Source of the DNA: Vaginimicrobium propionicum
GTDB taxonomy: Bacteria; Actinomycetota; Actinomycetes; Propionibacteriales; Propionibacteriaceae
Direction of reading: 5' to 3'
Assembly: GCF_900155645.1 (NCBI RefSeq)
Contig: NZ_LT706985.1
Span: 248,001-312,000, forward strand
DNA length: 64,000 bases
Each line of letters opens with the position of its first letter. The stretch's first letter is position 1. Of the stretch, positions 55,604 through 64,000 are shown in pieces. Below the pieces are notes generated by a model. It was not told where the DNA came from, ran no database searches, and worked only from the letters and a program-made list of their open reading frames with translations. The position numbers and the translations under genes are program-made.

Positions 55604-56572
55604 ATGGCAGGGTTTAATTTTTGTTCTGGTGATATGGGTTCCATGATGGAATCTAAAGGAACGGTCACGGCAGAGATCCTCGACATGATTGAGGAAGATA
55701 AGCGCGTTGCCTACATCAATTCGGACGCAACCATTCAAACTGGTCGCATGGGAGAGCTCATGCGGAAATATCCGAACCGAGTGCTGGATGTGGGTATTGC
55801 GGAGATGAATATGGTCACGATGGCAGCTGGCTTGGCTAAGGAGGGCTTCATTCCATTCGTGCAAACATTCGGGCCTTTTCTGTGTGTACGCGCGCTTGAT
55901 CAAATTCACAATGACGTTGCCTATAATAATTACCCGGTGCGTTTAATTGGCACTCACGCTGGCATTTCCTCGGGGTATGGGCCTACCCACAATACGATTG
56001 TCGAATTTGGAATCATGAATTCTATTCCTAATATGACTATGATTGCGCCGGCAGACGCGATTCAATGTCGTAAGGTTTTGCGCGCATCTATGGATTATGA
56101 AAAACCAATTTACATTAGGATTCCACGCGGTGAAGAGCCTATCGTTTACGATCAGGATCTCGTTTATGAAATCGGTAAGGCTGTAGAGATTAAATCTGGA
56201 AAGGATTTGACTTTCATTGCCACCGGCATGGGCGTGCGTGGATCTATACAAGCTGCACATGAATTGGAGAAAGAAGGCTTCGATATCGGAGTAATCGATA
56301 TGCATACGATTAAGCCGATTGACAAAGCGGCTATTTGCAAGGCGGCTTCCGCAACTGGCGCTATCGTGACTGTTGAAGACCACAATATTCTTGGCGGATT
56401 GGGTTCAATTGTTGCCGACGTACTTATGGATGCACGCATTTACGTTCCACTTGTGAAGATCGGTATTCCTGACGAATTTGTTAATTTCGGATATCCGGAA
56501 GAGCTATACCCCCACTACGGTATGGATGGATGTGGCATTGCCGCGACGGCACGCAATATCCTACGCGGATAA
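55604..56572 (+). CDS. Transketolase C-terminal subunit
   Basis: 322 aa: the pyrimidine-binding domain (IGIAEMNMVTMAAGLAKEGFIPFVQTFGPF with the catalytic glutamate, about 65-95) and the C-terminal transketolase domain (about 195-315). Partner of the preceding gene (2-bp gap). A terminator follows at 56587, so the MFS gene is partly separate. Confidence 0.93.
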   Translation: MAGFNFCSGDMGSMMESKGTVTAEILDMIEEDKRVAYINSDATIQTGRMGELMRKYPNRVLDVGIAEMNMVTMAAGLAKEGFIPFVQTFGPFLCVRALDQIHNDVAYNNYPVRLIGTHAGISSGYGPTHNTIVEFGIMNSIPNMTMIAPADAIQCRKVLRASMDYEKPIYIRIPRGEEPIVYDQDLVYEIGKAVEIKSGKDLTFIATGMGVRGSIQAAHELEKEGFDIGVIDMHTIKPIDKAAICKAASATGAIVTVEDHNILGGLGSIVADVLMDARIYVPLVKIGIPDEFVNFGYPEELYPHYGMDGCGIAATARNILRG

Positions 56573-56586
56573 ACATAAGCTTAAAC

Positions 56587-56620
56587 GGCGGGGGCGGCTG
56601 CCCGTACCCCGCCCTTCTTT
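56587..56620 (+). terminator. Terminator after the transketolase genes
   Basis: 7-bp GC stem ggcgggg (56587-56593) with ccccgcc (56607-56613), followed by ttcttt. It lies 15 bp after the stop. Confidence 0.75.
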
Positions 56621-56691
56621 CCCTCCTCTATCTGAGGCCTATTATGAAACGAGTAATAATGAAAAATGAGTCACCTTATAGATGAGCGGTT

Positions 56692-57864
56692 TTGACCGTT
56701 GTCAGTTTGACAGTTTTAGTAGGTGGTTTCACGCAATTCATGGTGGCTCCTTGGGGAGCCGAAATTGCGCAGGACTTAGGATTCGCTGCCACAGATATAG
56801 CCGGCATTGTGTTTGCCCCGATGATTGTTGGGGTTCTTGTGAGTTTGCCAGGCGGTACTCTTGCCGACCGTTTCGGTGTAAAGAAGGTGCTGGCTGTCGC
56901 CTTGATAATTGCGACTTGTGGTGCTTTCCTACGCGTTTGGGCTGGATCTTATCTTTTGCTCTTCGTGAGCATGTTCCTCTCCGGTGCATCAGGGACTCTT
57001 GCTATGGCTAATTCCCCGAAAATTTTGAGCGCGTGGTTTAAGCCGCAATCCTTAGGCTTGGTTTTCGGCATTTTTATGGCCGGAGGTGGTTTGGGCTCCA
57101 CAGTAGGAATGGCCGTGGCGCGGCTTTTCCCGAGCTACGAACATGCATTCTGGGTATCGGCGTTCATAATGCTTGCAGTGCTCATTGCTTGGGTTTTGTT
57201 AATCAAGGAGCGCCCAGAAGGAGCGGCTGTCCCTCCGCCCGCGCCATCAGCTATATCCGGTTTGGCTAGCGTAATAAAGCTTCCCCATGTGTGGCTTTTA
57301 GGAGCTGGCATGGCGTTTTTCACTGCGGCTAATATGACTTATTCTTCGTTGCTGCCCGTTGGGCTACAGGCTGATAAAGGCATGACACCTGAGCAGGCAG
57401 GCGTGGCAGCTTCAGCTATTATGTTGGGCTCTCTGCTAGGTAGTCTTGGTACTCCGATAGCGTTGAAGATTTCCCATGGCCTATCCAAACCGGTGATTTT
57501 AATTAGTGGAATAGTTAGCTCAATCTGCCTGTTCTTCGCTTGGCGCGCCGCTCCGAGCCCAGCGTTTATGCTTTTCCTCTGTTTAGGCGGCATCGCATTA
57601 GCCATGGCTATGACGGTGATAATGTCGGGACCCTCGCAACTGCCAGAGGTGACCTCGCAATCGGTAGGAGCTGCTGGCGGACTCATCTCCACCGTGCAAA
57701 TGGCCGGAGCATTTGTAATTCCAACATGGATCATCACCCCGATTGCCGGAGGAGACTACACGTTTATCTTTATTTTGGGAAGCCTCTGCGCTCTGCTCAT
57801 CACCGGTGCGTTAATCTTTATTCCAGAATTCAGCAGAGTGCGCGATGCGCAAAGAGTGGTCTAG
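56692..57864 (+). CDS. MFS transporter
   Basis: 390 aa with 11-12 membrane segments and the family loop motif GGTLADRFGVKKV after segment 2. Start TTG 56692 has no strong ribosome site and the first helix begins almost at once, so the N-terminus may be short by a few residues or misassigned. Resembles nitrate/organic-anion-type MFS carriers (MAMTVIMSGPSQLPEV). Its place next to split transketolase suggests import of a sugar or sugar acid. It is convergent with the LysR gene and overlaps it by 4 bp. Confidence 0.85.
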   Translation: MTVVSLTVLVGGFTQFMVAPWGAEIAQDLGFAATDIAGIVFAPMIVGVLVSLPGGTLADRFGVKKVLAVALIIATCGAFLRVWAGSYLLLFVSMFLSGASGTLAMANSPKILSAWFKPQSLGLVFGIFMAGGGLGSTVGMAVARLFPSYEHAFWVSAFIMLAVLIAWVLLIKERPEGAAVPPPAPSAISGLASVIKLPHVWLLGAGMAFFTAANMTYSSLLPVGLQADKGMTPEQAGVAASAIMLGSLLGSLGTPIALKISHGLSKPVILISGIVSSICLFFAWRAAPSPAFMLFLCLGGIALAMAMTVIMSGPSQLPEVTSQSVGAAGGLISTVQMAGAFVIPTWIITPIAGGDYTFIFILGSLCALLITGALIFIPEFSRVRDAQRVV

Positions 57865-58748
57865 GAGAAGTTGTCTCTAAGCTGACCTAGAAATTCCTCT
57901 TCTACTTCGAATAGTTCCTCGCTTCGACGCCGAACCACTATGAGCTGAGTCTCGGCGTCGAAACTGGGGGTGACTGGAATGCATCGAAGCGGCGAGGAGA
58001 AACAACCGCGAGTCCATTTAGACACAAAAAGCAGCGCATCTGTGCGGTTAAGAAAGTTCTGGCAGAGATCGATGGAATTAAAAGCTACAATTTGTTTGGT
58101 GGGTGAATGGATACGCGAAAAATCATTGACGCGCATATCTAGAGTTAGTAAATTCCCGCTTTCAATTTCGCTGCGCGGTACAGTGGTGGCCTCGTAGTAC
58201 TGAGATTGCGGTCCTACACACACGAAAATGGGTCCGGTGTCTAAAATGGTGATTTCAAGTGTACGTATATCGGCAGGCCACATAAACGTTTTATCGTCTA
58301 AATCTGTTCTTACAAGGATTCCAAAAGTCGCTTTTCCATCGATTACGTTCTCAATCACCTCACTTCGATTTGTTTGCTGTAGGTCAAAACGCAATGAATT
58401 GTTTTTGTGTTTGCGGTAAATGTCTAGGAATAGAGATGAAATAAAATCGAACTGTTGGCTGGCAACGCTTAGTTGTTGTATTCGAGCGCTCTCTTTTCCT
58501 CTCATAGAAGAGCGTAAGTGTTCAACTAAAACGGAGATTTCGCGCGCCTGGTGTAAAAATTCTTTACCATCGGCAGTTAGTTGGACCCCGTGAGGGGTGC
58601 GCAGAAAAAACTTTGTGCCGAACTCATGCTCGAGTGCTGCAATCGACTTAGTGAGGCCGGGTTGGCTAGTAAAGAGCTCGTAAGCAGCCTGAGTGATGGA
58701 ACCACACTCAGCTACCTTAATGATCTGACCTAACTGTTCGAATCGCAT
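57861..58748 (-). CDS. LysR-family transcriptional regulator
   Basis: 295 aa. Winged helix-turn-helix at residues 1-60 (MRFEQLGQIIKVAECGSITQAAYELFTSQPGLTKSIAALEHEFGTKFFLRT), then the effector-binding domain. LysR regulators often control nearby or divergent genes; here it is convergent to the MFS gene and may act on the transketolase-MFS module. A 198-bp gap separates its start from the GNAT gene. Confidence 0.92.
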   Translation of the reverse strand: MRFEQLGQIIKVAECGSITQAAYELFTSQPGLTKSIAALEHEFGTKFFLRTPHGVQLTADGKEFLHQAREISVLVEHLRSSMRGKESARIQQLSVASQQFDFISSLFLDIYRKHKNNSLRFDLQQTNRSEVIENVIDGKATFGILVRTDLDDKTFMWPADIRTLEITILDTGPIFVCVGPQSQYYEATTVPRSEIESGNLLTLDMRVNDFSRIHSPTKQIVAFNSIDLCQNFLNRTDALLFVSKWTRGCFSSPLRCIPVTPSFDAETQLIVVRRRSEELFEVEEEFLGQLRDNFS

Positions 58749-60227: not shown

Positions 60228-60317
60228 CACGTATACGCGTATGCCCTGAAATCTTGAATATAAATCTTTATATGCCAATTGCTTGACAAGTACGTATACG
60301 TGCTGCATAGTTAAGCC
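60228..60317 (+). promoter_or_regulatory. GntR operon promoter with two palindromic operators
   Basis: A -35 TTGACA (60283-60288), a 17-bp spacer and a -10-like CATAGT (60306-60311). The spacer contains the perfect palindrome acgtatacgt (60292-60301). Upstream, 60228-60243 holds cgtatacg overlapping atacgcgtat. Both match the kind of site GntR/HutC proteins bind. The start codon is 7 nt after the -10, so the mRNA is probably leaderless. Confidence 0.7.
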
Positions 60318-61079
60318 ATGGAGTGCAATGAAGCGCGAACCGAGCTGCCGGCTGGCCTAACTCTTACAGAAGAGGTCAGGTGGATCTTGCTTAACCGGAT
60401 AAAGAATGGCTTTTACGCACCAGGGCAAAAACTTCCAAGTGAGATTGATCTGGCTAGTGAGTTAGGTGTTAGTGTTGCGCCTATTCGTGCGGCTTTTTCG
60501 CAGCTTGTTTCTGCAGGGCTGATAAATCGACGTTCTGGAAGTGGGACTTATGCTAGCCAAGAGCCGCTTCAACATCAGCTATCTACGTGGGTATCTTTCA
60601 CACAGGAGCTACGAAGACTAGAAATTGATTTTGCTACGAAGGTTGAACGGTATAAACAAGTTGATGAAATCCCTTCTCGTGTTTTGGCTCGTTTCCCTTA
60701 TTTAGCTGATGCTTCTGCAATGCAACTTGAACGAACAGTCGAATTTGATGATCGAGTTCGGATTTTCACTCGTTCCTGGTTTAGAAGCGATTGGATGGAA
60801 AAGATCCCGGATCTGGAGTATTTCTCTGATGGGAACTCGCTGTATTCGTGGTTTAGAAATCAAGGCAAACGCGTAGTATTTGCGGAAACTAATTTGCAAG
60901 TTACTTTTATGGACGATGAGCTTGCGGAACGCTTCGGATCGGAATGGGGTACCCCCGTAGTGCTGCTTGAGGGAGCTGCATATACGCGTAATGGTCAAAT
61001 TGAATATTCAGAAACTTATTACGACCATACCTCTTTCACTTTCACTGCAACTTACGCGACTAGAACAGGAACTAATTGA
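60318..61079 (+). CDS. GntR-family (HutC/UTRA type) transcriptional regulator
   Basis: 253 aa. Winged helix-turn-helix at about 17-80 (EVRWILLNRIKNGFYAPGQKLPSEIDLASELGVSVAPIRAAFSQLVSAGLINRRSGSGTYAS), then a UTRA ligand-binding domain (about 95-250, ending YSETYYDHTSFTF). It probably represses its own operon by blocking RNA polymerase at the spacer palindrome and responds to a nucleoside- or sugar-like ligand. No ribosome site before the ATG. The stop overlaps the next ATG. Confidence 0.92.
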   Translation: MECNEARTELPAGLTLTEEVRWILLNRIKNGFYAPGQKLPSEIDLASELGVSVAPIRAAFSQLVSAGLINRRSGSGTYASQEPLQHQLSTWVSFTQELRRLEIDFATKVERYKQVDEIPSRVLARFPYLADASAMQLERTVEFDDRVRIFTRSWFRSDWMEKIPDLEYFSDGNSLYSWFRNQGKRVVFAETNLQVTFMDDELAERFGSEWGTPVVLLEGAAYTRNGQIEYSETYYDHTSFTFTATYATRTGTN

Positions 61080-62095
61080 TGGATGAAATGCTAAACGCTC
61101 GCGTTCTCGGCGGGATGTATGGAGCGGTTATTGGAGACGCGCTCGGCGCAATTACTGAAACTCTGTCTATGCGGCAGATTAGAGAACTATACGGATGGCT
61201 GGATGATTTTCAGCCCCTTAAAACTCAGCCTTATGGGCAAGATAGGGTTCCGGGAGAAATAACAGACGATGCGTCTCTTGTGTTAGCAATGGCTGCTGTG
61301 GCTCATTCTGAGGATTTCACAATAGATATGGCAATCAAGGGAGTGCAGGCTTGGGCTTCTGATGAGCGGTATTCACGTTATGCGGGTCCCAGTACAAAGC
61401 GTGCTCTGGCTTTAATTTTAAGAGGGTGTGACCCGCTCGAGGCGGGCAAAGGTGATGTTACATCATTTACGGGTGCCAGTAATGGGGGCGCCATGAAAGT
61501 TGCTCCAGCTGGATGGATGGCACCTAACGATATTGAAAAGGCTGTAAGAAATGCTGCCGCTATGTGCGGCCCTACTCACAACACAAATTTGGCCATTGCG
61601 GGGGCATCTGCCATTGCGGCGGCTTGCAGCGCAGCTCTAGATGAGTCACCAACGGTTGAAAGTGTAACTGCAGCAGCTATCAACGGTGCAGAAAAAGGCG
61701 CGCGGATAGGTTTAAGACAAGGGAGAGAAGTCGCAGGGCCGGACGTAGCGTTGCGTATTCGTCAAGCCTTGGATCTCATTGATGTTGAAGAACCCAATGC
61801 TTCACTCGAGCGACTTGCAAATCGTATTGGATGTGGGCTGGCAACATCTGAGTCAGTTCCAGTTGCGATTGCGATATTCGCGCTCTCCCAAGGAGATGGG
61901 CGGCTATGTGCCATTTATTCCGCAAATGTCAGTGATGATACCGACACTGTGGGGTGTATGGCCACTGCAATTGGCGGAACGTTTAGCGGTGCAAACGTAT
62001 TTCCGTTGCGATGGAGAAAACTTGTTAGCGCCGCAAACCACATAGACGTGGAAAAACTGACTAAACAGTTCATTGAAAGGACACAGAATGCGTAA
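61079..62095 (+). CDS. ADP-ribosylglycohydrolase-fold enzyme
   Basis: 338 aa; ATG 61079 overlaps the GntR stop. The metal-binding motifs of the DraG/ARH fold are visible: GAVIGDALGA near the N-terminus, TDDASLVLAMA (about 61-71) and SDDTDTVGCMATAIGGTFSGA (about 284-304). Such enzymes remove ADP-ribose from proteins or hydrolyse related N-glycosides. Beside a BMP lipoprotein and an ABC ATPase, a role in cleaving an imported nucleoside or ribosyl compound is more likely than protein de-ADP-ribosylation; that is inference. The next gene starts inside its 3' end (8-bp overlap). Confidence 0.88.
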   Translation: MDEMLNARVLGGMYGAVIGDALGAITETLSMRQIRELYGWLDDFQPLKTQPYGQDRVPGEITDDASLVLAMAAVAHSEDFTIDMAIKGVQAWASDERYSRYAGPSTKRALALILRGCDPLEAGKGDVTSFTGASNGGAMKVAPAGWMAPNDIEKAVRNAAAMCGPTHNTNLAIAGASAIAAACSAALDESPTVESVTAAAINGAEKGARIGLRQGREVAGPDVALRIRQALDLIDVEEPNASLERLANRIGCGLATSESVPVAIAIFALSQGDGRLCAIYSANVSDDTDTVGCMATAIGGTFSGANVFPLRWRKLVSAANHIDVEKLTKQFIERTQNA

Positions 62096-63074
62096 GTTCG
62101 TCAAGGCTATCTTGGTAGTCTCGCTCGCAGTATTTCTTGCCAGTTGTGGTTCAACTGGTTCTGGTGAAACCCCGGCTGATTCGAAAGAAGGCAGCACGGT
62201 TTTAATCATGAACCAACCTGCCGGGAATCCATTTGCGGATTTAGTTTATGCCGGAATGGTCAAGGCGGCCGAAGAAAAAGGCATCAGTTCCCAGCAAGTG
62301 CCGGGTGTTCAGGCCGGCGCCTATGAGCAGCAGCTGCGAAGTGCTGCTGAAGCAGGCAACAACCCTATTGCTGTCTTATGGGATGATTTAGGAAATGCTG
62401 TTGCTCGTGTTGCCCCAGATTATCCTGATACAAAGTTTCTTGTCATTGATTCAGCAGTTGATCCGAAACTTCCGAATGTCCAGACTGTCTTGATCGACTC
62501 CTCCCAATCTTCCTATCTGGCCGGGGTAGTTGCAGCGCACCTAACGGAATCCAAAAAAGTCGGTTTTGTTGGGGGGCAAGATATGGGAGTTGTAAATGAG
62601 TGGGCCTGCGGTTTTAAGGCAGGTATTGAAAAAATTGATTCTTCTGTGTCTCTCACCGTCAATTACGCTGGGACTTTTACTGATCCTCAGAAAGGCAAGC
62701 AAATCGCTAATGCGATGGCCGGGGATGGTATAGACGTTATTTTCCAAGCCGCAAACCAGACTGGATTGGGCGTAATAAATGGCGCTGCTGATCGTGGCAT
62801 CAAAGCAATTGGGTCTGATTCTTGGCAAGGTGATGTCGCTTCAGGGTCTGTACCGTGGTCGGCACTTAAAGATGCGGGAGCAGCTACATATACATCCATC
62901 CTCAAGGTTTTAGACGGCAAATTTGAGAGTGGTTTGTTCGTGTATGACTCAACTCAAGGGGCTCCCTTGTATGACTCTCGCGACTATGATGCTTTAGCTC
63001 CTGAGGTGAAAGCTGAGGTAGATAACATTGAATCTCAGCTTCGCGACGGTACCATTACTCTTTCTTGCCGGTAG
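62088..63074 (+). CDS. BMP-family substrate-binding lipoprotein
   Basis: 328 aa with a lipoprotein signal (residues 1-20, lipobox LASC), then the BMP/PnrA-like periplasmic-binding fold: STVLIMNQPAGNPFADLVYAGMVKAAEEKG, SSYLAGVVAAHLTESKKVGFVGG and GSDSWQGDVA. BMP proteins bind purine nucleosides or other compounds for ABC import. GAAAGGA ribosome site before ATG 62088. Co-transcribed with the glycohydrolase and the ABC ATPase. Confidence 0.93.
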   Translation: MRKFVKAILVVSLAVFLASCGSTGSGETPADSKEGSTVLIMNQPAGNPFADLVYAGMVKAAEEKGISSQQVPGVQAGAYEQQLRSAAEAGNNPIAVLWDDLGNAVARVAPDYPDTKFLVIDSAVDPKLPNVQTVLIDSSQSSYLAGVVAAHLTESKKVGFVGGQDMGVVNEWACGFKAGIEKIDSSVSLTVNYAGTFTDPQKGKQIANAMAGDGIDVIFQAANQTGLGVINGAADRGIKAIGSDSWQGDVASGSVPWSALKDAGAATYTSILKVLDGKFESGLFVYDSTQGAPLYDSRDYDALAPEVKAEVDNIESQLRDGTITLSCR

Positions 63075-63089
63075 GTAGGTGTGTGACAG

Positions 63090-64000
63090 GTGGACGAAAT
63101 CCGGCTTGAGAATATCTCGAAGCGGTTCGGATCGATCCAGGCGGTTGACGATGTCAGCGTCGTTATTTCACCGGGCACTGTGACAGCCGTGGTTGGTGAA
63201 AATGGCGCTGGCAAGTCAACTTTGGTGAAAATTCTTGCAGGCGTTGTGGAATTGGATTCGGGACATATATACCGAGGAGATCGCTCTCTAAGTATAACTA
63301 GCGCGAGGGTTGCTGCTCTACAAGGAATCGGAATGGTATTCCAGGAGATGGCGCTAGTTCCTGACTTGACGGTTTGGGAAAACGTGTGCCTTGGCTGGGA
63401 GACCACGAGTAGAGGAAAGCTTGCTCGAAAAGAGATTATTAATCGAGTGAAGTCAGTCTCGGAAGAATTTGGCTTGTCAATCCGACCTGACGTCAGAGTA
63501 AGAGATCTTCCTGTTAGTTTGCGTCAGCGAGTAGAGATATTGAAGGTTCTATATCGTGATGTTGACACAATTATTTTAGATGAGCCGACTGGAATTCTTA
63601 CGCCACAAGAAGCTGAGTCATTATTTGCTGCGATAGATACTCTTCGGGCTGCTGGTAAGGCTGTTGTTTTTATTTCACATAAGTTAAATGAAGTTCTGCG
63701 CTTAGCTGATGTGATCTATGTTATGCGTCGTGGAAAATTGGTTGCTAAAACCGAGCCAGGTGATTTAACTCCACGGGATTTAGCCAAGCTCATGCTCGGC
63801 GAGGAACTCCCCGTTATTGAAAAAGAAAAATCAAAGCTTGGAGCAACCGCCATTCGTCTTGACGATATTCATATCCGCAACAGTGAAGGAAATAAAATTC
63901 TGGGTCCTTTTAATTTAGATCTCAGGTTTGGTGAAGTTTTCGGTGTGGCAGGTGTTGCTGGTTCCGGGCAGGATGAGTTGGTTTCTGTTATCACTGGAAT
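63090..64000 (+). CDS. Nucleoside/sugar-type ABC transporter ATPase (continues past the window)
   Basis: Starts at GTG 63090, 15 bp after the BMP gene, and is open to the window edge. Two-domain ATPase of the RbsA/YufO type: Walker A GENGAGKST, Q-loop MVFQEMAL, Walker B TIILDEPTG, H-loop ISHK; a second domain begins at about residue 255. The signature reads LPVSLRQRVEI where relatives have LSVG-QQRVEI, so the usual LSGGQ-like Ser and Gly are changed. The permeases should follow outside the window. Confidence 0.9.
   Translation, partial: MDEIRLENISKRFGSIQAVDDVSVVISPGTVTAVVGENGAGKSTLVKILAGVVELDSGHIYRGDRSLSITSARVAALQGIGMVFQEMALVPDLTVWENVCLGWETTSRGKLARKEIINRVKSVSEEFGLSIRPDVRVRDLPVSLRQRVEILKVLYRDVDTIILDEPTGILTPQEAESLFAAIDTLRAAGKAVVFISHKLNEVLRLADVIYVMRRGKLVAKTEPGDLTPRDLAKLMLGEELPVIEKEKSKLGATAIRLDDIHIRNSEGNKILGPFNLDLRFGEVFGVAGVAGSGQDELVSVITG

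Follow-up and report, generated by a model that had tools for sequence, protein, structure and literature searches.

Operons that combine an enzyme of the ADP-ribosylglycohydrolase (ARH) fold with a sugar kinase and a transporter have already been described. The E. coli yegTUVW genes encode an ARH enzyme (YegU), a PfkB-type kinase (YegV), a GntR/UTRA regulator (YegW, or GgaR) and a putative transporter predicted to be of the nucleoside type (YegT). A staphylococcal version on the SCC/vSe1 element, SERP2218-2216, presents an ARH gene, a permease gene of the cytosine/purine/uracil/thiamine/allantoin type and a ribokinase gene in a row (passages of PMC3637587). Here we analyzed an operon of Vaginimicrobium propionicum that belongs to this known kind of cassette, still without an agreed function; it uses a BMP-type importer and carries an additional ureidoglycolate-lyase-like gene. 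The operon consists of eight tightly packed genes on the + strand (C1:308318-315965); it starts in a 64,000-nucleotide stretch of contig NZ_LT706985.1 (positions 248,001 to 312,000; hereafter the window) and runs past the end of that stretch. Genes located beyond the window are given by their position in locus L002 (C1:303001-323000), for which the window position is the L002 position + 55000.

60318-61079, + strand: GntR-family regulator with a UTRA (HutC-type) ligand domain (Pfam GntR 63.2 bits, UTRA 48.5 bits)
61079-62095, + strand: hydrolase of the ADP-ribosylglycohydrolase fold (ARH/DraG fold; PF03747, 167.7 bits against a cut-off of 26.2)
62088-63074, + strand: BMP/PnrA-type substrate-binding lipoprotein (PF02608, 160.5 bits)
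63090-64000, + strand: ATPase with two ATP-binding cassette (ABC) domains (Pfam), cut by the window end and complete at L002:8090-9619
L002:9616-10689, + strand, outside the window: permease 1, BPD_transp_2 (Pfam)
L002:10676-11557, + strand, outside the window: permease 2, BPD_transp_2 (Pfam)
L002:11554-12480, + strand, outside the window: PfkB kinase (Pfam PfkB 54.3 bits against 25.8)
L002:12477-12965, + strand, outside the window: ureidoglycolate-lyase-like protein (PF04115, 35.4 bits against 23)

Organization of the operon and comparison with described cassettes

The ATG of the ARH gene (61079) overlaps the GntR stop codon by one base, the BMP start (62088) overlaps the ARH stop (62095) by 8 bases and the ATPase starts (63090) 15 bases past the BMP stop. 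Each gene beyond the ATPase overlaps its predecessor, and the last one ends at L002:12965. An earlier note on this DNA had described the first four genes as overlapping or nearly touching and advised looking for permeases and a kinase beyond 64 kb. The four genes indeed lie there, tightly packed on one strand, and two BPD_transp_2 permeases and a PfkB kinase are found further along the same operon. The importer thus comprises a lipoprotein with a lipobox-like LASC sequence (identified by eye), a two-domain ATPase and two permeases, i.e., a complete BMP-ABC system. All eight proteins score above the Pfam cut-off. None of the NCBIfam models listed for these proteins reaches its cut-off, the comparison covering all listed models for six of the eight proteins and the 25 best ones for GntR (of 26) and for the ATPase (of 188). 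Because the Pfam scores exceed their cut-offs and similar arrangements recur in other phyla, a chance arrangement of these genes is not a concern.

Like yegTUVW, the operon brings together an ARH enzyme (32% identical to YegU), a PfkB kinase, a GntR regulator and an importer in one cluster. It differs in its importer, a BMP-type ABC system where E. coli has a transporter of nucleoside-H+ symporter type, and in its extra ureidoglycolate-lyase-like gene. Moreover, the GntR gene heads the operon whereas it is convergent in E. coli, and the two ARH enzymes belong to different subfamilies. The staphylococcal genes, likened here by their descriptions, share the ARH enzyme, a transporter and a sugar kinase with the operon. 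Their transporter is of another type, and BMP/ABC genes are not named in the passages of the source.

We consider it likely that the operon, under GntR control, serves the salvage of a nucleoside-like N-riboside. This compound would be captured outside the cell by the BMP lipoprotein, as expected from its family, and taken in by the ABC importer. Based on its fold and conserved active site, the ARH-type two-metal hydrolase would then cut the bond between the ribose and the aglycone, and the PfkB kinase would phosphorylate the ribosyl part, which could enter central metabolism as ribose 5-phosphate. The aglycone set free in this way could be a target of the ureidoglycolate-lyase-like protein. 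Judging from gene content and conserved residues, such small-molecule salvage fits better than the removal of ADP-ribose from proteins, because the neighborhood of PfkB, GntR and importer genes recurs and because the metal and glutamate residues of the ARH family are kept but the adenine-stacking tyrosine of ARH3 is not. The proposal of the earlier note that a ribosylated small molecule is imported and cleaved is therefore supported as regards the class of molecule, given the complete BMP-type importer, the PfkB kinase and the nucleoside hydrolases found beside similar cassettes, but it does not extend to the exact compound.

Distribution of the enzyme and its neighbors

The ARH gene is rare around the source genome. 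Within the order, the enzyme was detected in only 2 of 196 genomes at E 1e-40 (the source genome and G099) and, within the phylum, in 4 of 396 genomes at E 1e-30, source genome included. The closest sequences that we found are 35-39% identical to the operon enzyme. A scan of species genomes with this protein alone did not retrieve any relative. A second scan used a 15-sequence alignment against 84,980 species genomes, and we retained the best 80 of 317 relatives found among pattern-matching stretches (the 80 scan loci). Together with the earlier loci, these make 96 loci including L002, and profiles of the cassette members were run over all open reading frames (ORFs). Aligned sequences that run contrary to the pattern were kept: L017, with no PfkB nearby, and L009, with none within 7 kb.

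A PfkB gene was found within 3.5 kb of the ARH gene in 69 of the 80 scan loci and within 5 kb in 70, as compared to 3 loci at a distance of 5.5-9 kb. Similarly, a GntR gene was found within 3.5 kb in 57 loci and at 5.5-9 kb in 4. For this distant control, 135 of 160 flanks were long enough for full coverage. The importer differs between loci: within 3.5 kb, we found a nucleoside-H+ symporter (PF03825) in 25 loci, NCS1 (PF02133) in 15, another ABC system (PF00528 permease) in 10, a sugar-type MFS_2 transporter in 5 and ECF T in 3. When extended to 9.5 kb, the search yielded the BMP lipoprotein in 5 loci and ECF T in 4. PnuC was found in 2 of the 80 loci, both from one clade. One member each of the symporter, NCS1, other ABC and MFS_2 types was confirmed with Pfam. 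Between lineages, the importer is exchanged among BMP-ABC, nucleoside-H+ symporter, NCS1, PnuC, ECF and other types.

In the phylogenetic tree (IQ-TREE), the operon enzyme groups with 18 other sequences from 15 loci (support 100/99), but it sits on a long branch (1.71) and its placement is uncertain according to the warning of the program itself. All five scan loci that possess a BMP lipoprotein and BMP-type permeases (L023, L025, L028, L078 and L101) belong to this subfamily. L023 encodes a nucleoside phosphorylase, BMP, ATPase, two permeases, ARH, PfkB and two nucleoside hydrolases; L078 a BMP system, two nucleoside hydrolases, ARH and PfkB; and L101 a nucleoside hydrolase, a BMP system, ARH, a SIS protein and PfkB. 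In L028, the BMP version is found with an IF-2B-type isomerase. Overall, PF01156 nucleoside hydrolases are present within 9.5 kb in three of the five BMP loci (L023, L078 and L101) and a PF01048 nucleoside phosphorylase lies 7-8 kb away in two (L023 and L078). In other members of the same subfamily (L015, L048, L052, L056, L084 and L089), an MFS_2-type transporter takes the place of the BMP-ABC system, and no importer was recognized near the ARH gene in L029 and L043. In another subfamily, L009 (genome G357) presents GntR, ARH, BMP, ATPase and permease genes in the order of the window; no PfkB was seen within 7 kb. Finally, one ORF of 592 residues in L027 (L027:7168-8943) joins a GntR/UTRA regulator to an ARH-fold domain; it lies next to a second ARH gene and upstream of two AllA-like proteins.

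The source genome, a single contig of 2.01 Mb, contains one PF03747 match, which is the ARH gene of the operon. Elsewhere, it encodes two nucleoside hydrolases of PF01156 as well as another BMP protein, at C1:1958589, beside which no BMP-type permease was seen by eye (locus L121). Because the genome holds two ordinary nucleoside hydrolases outside the operon, common nucleosides seem to be covered by other genes, and the substrate of the operon is probably a more special one.

Active site of the hydrolase and sequence of the binding protein

The structure of the ARH enzyme was predicted by AlphaFold2 with high confidence (pLDDT 94.8). Its best Foldseek match is MJ1187 (E 3.2e-16), to which the model aligns with a Z-score of 38.4 and a root-mean-square deviation of 2.2 over 301 residues; the Z-score relative to ARH3 is about 36. 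The enzyme presents PF03747 membership, the ARH fold, the T-D-D and D-T-D-T metal motifs and the catalytic glutamate, with E26, T61, D62, D63, D286, T287, D288 and T289 as metal and catalytic residues. The corresponding set of ARH3 is Glu41, Thr76, Asp77, Asp78, Asp314, Asp316 and Thr317 (passages of PMC9738213), and E26, T61, D62, D63, D286, D288 and T289 align with it. The operon enzyme thus shares with ARH1, ARH3, DraG and MJ1187 the fold, the metal residues, the catalytic glutamate and the glycine and histidine that contact phosphate. It departs from ARH1, ARH3 and DraG in its context, which is one of transport and sugar phosphorylation instead of ADP-ribosyltransferases.

In ARH3 of Latimeria, Phe129 and Tyr135 stack on the adenosine, and the contacts to the pyrophosphate come from Ser134, His168 and backbone atoms including those of Gly138; citrate is said to mimic the Pbeta contacts to the histidine and Gly138 (passages of PMC6309922). 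The SYGNG loop of human ARH3 aligns with GASNG in the operon enzyme, and none of the 15 aligned enzymes possesses a tyrosine at the adenine-stacking position (15/15). The equivalent of Phe129 had no confident placement in the operon enzyme. In contrast to the lost tyrosine, the phosphate-contacting Gly135 and His166 are invariant (15/15 and 20/20). The loss of the tyrosine makes an ARH3-like binding of ADP-ribose less likely, and the residue pattern would suit an enzyme that holds ribose 5-phosphate but no adenosine in the manner of ARH3. Because the phosphate contacts are kept and the adenine-stacking tyrosine is not, we favor an order in which the kinase would act first and the hydrolase second. 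This preference is a weak one since the same glycine and histidine are kept across ARH enzymes generally. A kinase-first order would parallel the kinase-then-glycosidase logic of pseudouridine (PsuK/PsuG) and queuosine (QueK/QueL) salvage.

The lipoprotein belongs to the Bmp family of Pfam, and its best relatives of solved structure include Lbp, BmpA, BmpD and TmpC/PnrA, which belong to the BMP/PnrA nucleoside ABC importers. All five aligned BMP proteins of the cassettes share Asp 121, Asp 244 and Lys 261. Lbp, BmpA, BmpD and lipoprotein 6y9u present a stretch with the sequence F-N-[QE]-S; its counterpart in the operon protein is P-F-A-D-L, so that the base part of the ligand may differ. The models of putative B6 ABC transporters (NF047927-NF047930) remained below their cut-offs when compared to the operon (63.2/400, 373/670, 108.5/400 and 130.1/465 bits).

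Promoter and putative operators

Upstream of the GntR gene, we identified a promoter-like site and two probable operators:

60229-60239, + strand: probable GntR operator 1, ACGTATACGCG, part of a palindrome (motif count)
60283-60311, + strand: promoter-like site TTGACA-17-CATAGT (10/12 matches)
60292-60302, + strand: probable GntR operator 2, ACGTATACGTG, between the promoter hexamers (motif count)

The sequence ACGTATACG[C/T]G is present in two copies, at 60229 and 60292. These are the only two sites of the window with ACGTATACG (3 matches over both strands, 0.24 expected), and ACGTATACGNG occurs three times in the 2.01 Mb genome: twice at this promoter and once elsewhere. The promoter-like site ends 6 bases before the GntR ATG, and this spacing may indicate a leaderless message. 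Taken alone, the promoter match is weak, such sites not being enriched in the scanned stretch (12 found against 20.4 expected in shuffles). The GntR protein is probably a repressor of the operon that acts through the two CGTATACG palindromes, and either the substrate or a phosphorylated product would release it. By analogy, the two-site arrangement resembles that of a single-target autorepressor: GgaR of E. coli is reported to have one target only, with two binding sites (passages of PMC10819704). We also considered an operator motif shared by the cassettes and rejected it, as only 6 of the other 95 loci contain palindromes of the CGTATACG/GTATATAC type within 2.5 kb of the ARH gene, with one hit each.

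Alternative explanations

Several observations weigh against riboside salvage. The kinase of the operon is divergent: it scores 46.7 bits with the ribokinase model TIGR02152, whose cut-off is 299.65. Counts of neighboring genes overstate the independence of the loci, 28 of the 80 scan loci being from one gammaproteobacterial clade (30 sequences); the association therefore draws its strength from the spread of PfkB neighbors across Pseudomonadota, Bacillota, Actinomycetota, Chloroflexota and Bacteroidota and not from the raw count. PfkB is missing within 5 kb in ten of the 80 loci (L024, L032, L054, L068, L069, L073, L082, L091, L095 and L097). Because such loci pair the ARH gene with an aldolase and an alcohol dehydrogenase (L024 and L032) or with a phosphotransferase system (PTS; L068), the small-molecule partners of the fold do not appear to form one class. 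Plain ribose 5-phosphate would require neither the IF-2B-type isomerase encoded in L027 and L028 nor the SIS protein of L013 and L101, a hint that the sugar is another one in some cases. The argument from active-site residues is also weak: the serine of ARH3 that contacts pyrophosphate is a glycine in the operon enzyme, the phosphate-contacting glycine and histidine are said to be absolutely conserved among ARH enzymes, and ARH1 accommodates adenosine differently, through a Tyr263 loop and without the tyrosine of ARH3 (passages of PMC6309922). The kept glycine and histidine may then only reflect descent. Finally, our literature searches, which covered most papers by their listings, revealed no substrate, activity or binding for the ARH subfamily of the window, nor any substrate assignment for the ARH-PfkB cassette.

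The earlier note had named fragments of nicotinamide adenine dinucleotide (NAD) among the possible substrates, in which case the enzyme would remove ADP-ribose or cleave nicotinamide or nicotinate riboside to feed NAD synthesis. NAD-related genes do exist near some relatives: in L063 and L079, the ARH and PfkB genes have PnuC (150 bits, cut-off 42.45) as a neighbor, a Lactiplantibacillus plasmid carries an NrtR-like NUDIX protein, nicotinate phosphoribosyltransferase and isochorismatase 1-3 kb upstream of ARH-NCS1-PfkB (L020:3872-10241), and another plasmid locus (L016) has a nicotinate-degradation-like group near the ARH gene. ARH1 and ARH3 also hydrolyze alpha-NAD+ (passages of PMC9738213). 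However, apart from weak single hits in L010 and L043, only 4 of the 96 loci were found to have PncB, PnuC or nic-like genes near the enzyme, all four of them outside the subfamily of the window; no NAD gene is present among the eight operon genes and the adenine-stacking tyrosine is absent. We rejected an NAD link as a general rule for the cassettes because it is too sparse, and for this operon we regard it as rather unlikely. A role in ADP-glucose or glycogen metabolism, as proposed for yegTUV under GgaR, is quite improbable here. It draws on the findings that ADP-glucose releases GgaR from DNA and that loss of ggaR raises glycogen in E. coli, which again counts against riboside salvage; no yegTUV gene has a clear function according to the same text (passages of PMC10819704). 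BMP, NCS1, PnuC and ECF importers and nucleoside hydrolases would be unexpected for a sugar nucleotide, and the operon GntR is only distantly similar to YegW (33.9 bits).

The enzyme could also reverse protein ADP-ribosylation like DraG, ARH1 or Tri1, its location in a transport operon being incidental. The fold and the metal-site residues are those of ARH3 and DraG, but the enzyme scores far below the cut-offs of the DraG equivalog model TIGR02662 (51.3 against 337.05 bits) and of the Tri1 ADP-ribosylarginine hydrolase model NF041672 (34.3 against 490), no ADP-ribosyltransferase is found among the eight operon genes and the kinase association is shared by most scan loci. We consider this highly improbable, and the separate role that had been proposed is the better fit with the context of this sole PF03747 gene of the genome. 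A last possibility, which we find scarcely credible, is that the operon salvages queuosine or queuine for tgt, located 1.5 kb downstream (L002:14473-15711). QueA was not found in the source genome, and queuosine salvage does pair a PfkB kinase with a hydrolase. The tgt gene is, however, present in 33 of 37 genomes of the family whereas the ARH gene is restricted to the two genomes of the order mentioned above, the relative G147 possesses the phosphatase-tgt-PhoH-YbeY-CorC-Era block without the operon, and tgt lies near the ARH gene in none of the 95 other loci, so that a link through this neighbor is not supported. The occurrence of tgt across the family together with the lack of a detectable QueA in the source genome suggests that the organism salvages queuine.

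Neighboring genes and other observations

The operon is followed by a metallophosphoesterase on the opposite strand and then by tgt. Upstream, the window contains genes for a transketolase C-terminal-half protein, a major facilitator superfamily (MFS) transporter and a LysR regulator on the other strand (55604-58748). The last protein of the operon matched four NCBIfam models of ureidoglycolate lyase (AllA), all below cut-off (32.6/160, 26.5/260, 25.6/212 and 22.4/230 bits). Among the 96 loci, an AllA-like gene was found only in the window locus and, twice, in L027, which led us to reject it as a regular partner of the cassette. Elsewhere in the genome, a few kb separate a Cas9 gene (Cas9_a 257 bits; L122:8895-11999, C1 about 1784894-1787998) from one for a nucleoside hydrolase.

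Other arrangements of ARH genes were observed among the relatives. In L024, L030, L031 and L032, they are found with a DeoC/LacD-type aldolase and a zinc alcohol dehydrogenase, along with an FGGY kinase in three of the four loci; in L030 and L031, ECF importer genes are also located beside this group. A span of 7 kb in L029 contains three ARH paralogues. Immediately downstream of a beta-glucoside-type PTS gene, Enterococcus raffinosus carries an ARH-family gene near which no PfkB was found (L017:5066-7975); a PTS gene also precedes the ARH gene in L068. These PTS neighbors perhaps indicate another small-molecule role of the fold.

Implications

The annotation "ADP-ribosylglycohydrolase" invites the reading that a bacterial protein acts in protein ADP-ribosylation, whereas the relatives analyzed here are mostly found in uptake cassettes with PfkB (69/80). 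The E. coli member, yegTUVW, is still without an agreed function. The BMP-ABC version of the cassette brings a separate binding protein, which makes the question of the substrate directly testable by ligand screening.

The stereochemistry of ARH enzymes adds a sharp prediction concerning alpha- and beta-ribosides. Because ARH1 and ARH3 are reported to cut alpha-NAD+ but not beta-NAD+ (passages of PMC9738213), the ARH-PfkB cassettes could salvage alpha-anomeric ribosides, although we regard this extension of riboside salvage as doubtful. Such compounds would not be cut by ordinary beta-specific nucleoside hydrolases. Examples of alpha-ribosides are alpha-ribazole, the nucleoside of the B12 lower ligand, and alpha-nicotinamide riboside. 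If the operon enzyme keeps the ARH stereochemistry, this would explain why nucleoside and vitamin importers (BMP, nucleoside-H+ symporter, NCS1, PnuC and ECF) are interchangeable, and why nucleoside hydrolases coexist with the enzyme in the clusters of L023, L078 and L101 and elsewhere in the source genome. If true, it would point to a widespread unrecognized pathway, and many "ADP-ribosylglycohydrolase" proteins would have to be renamed.

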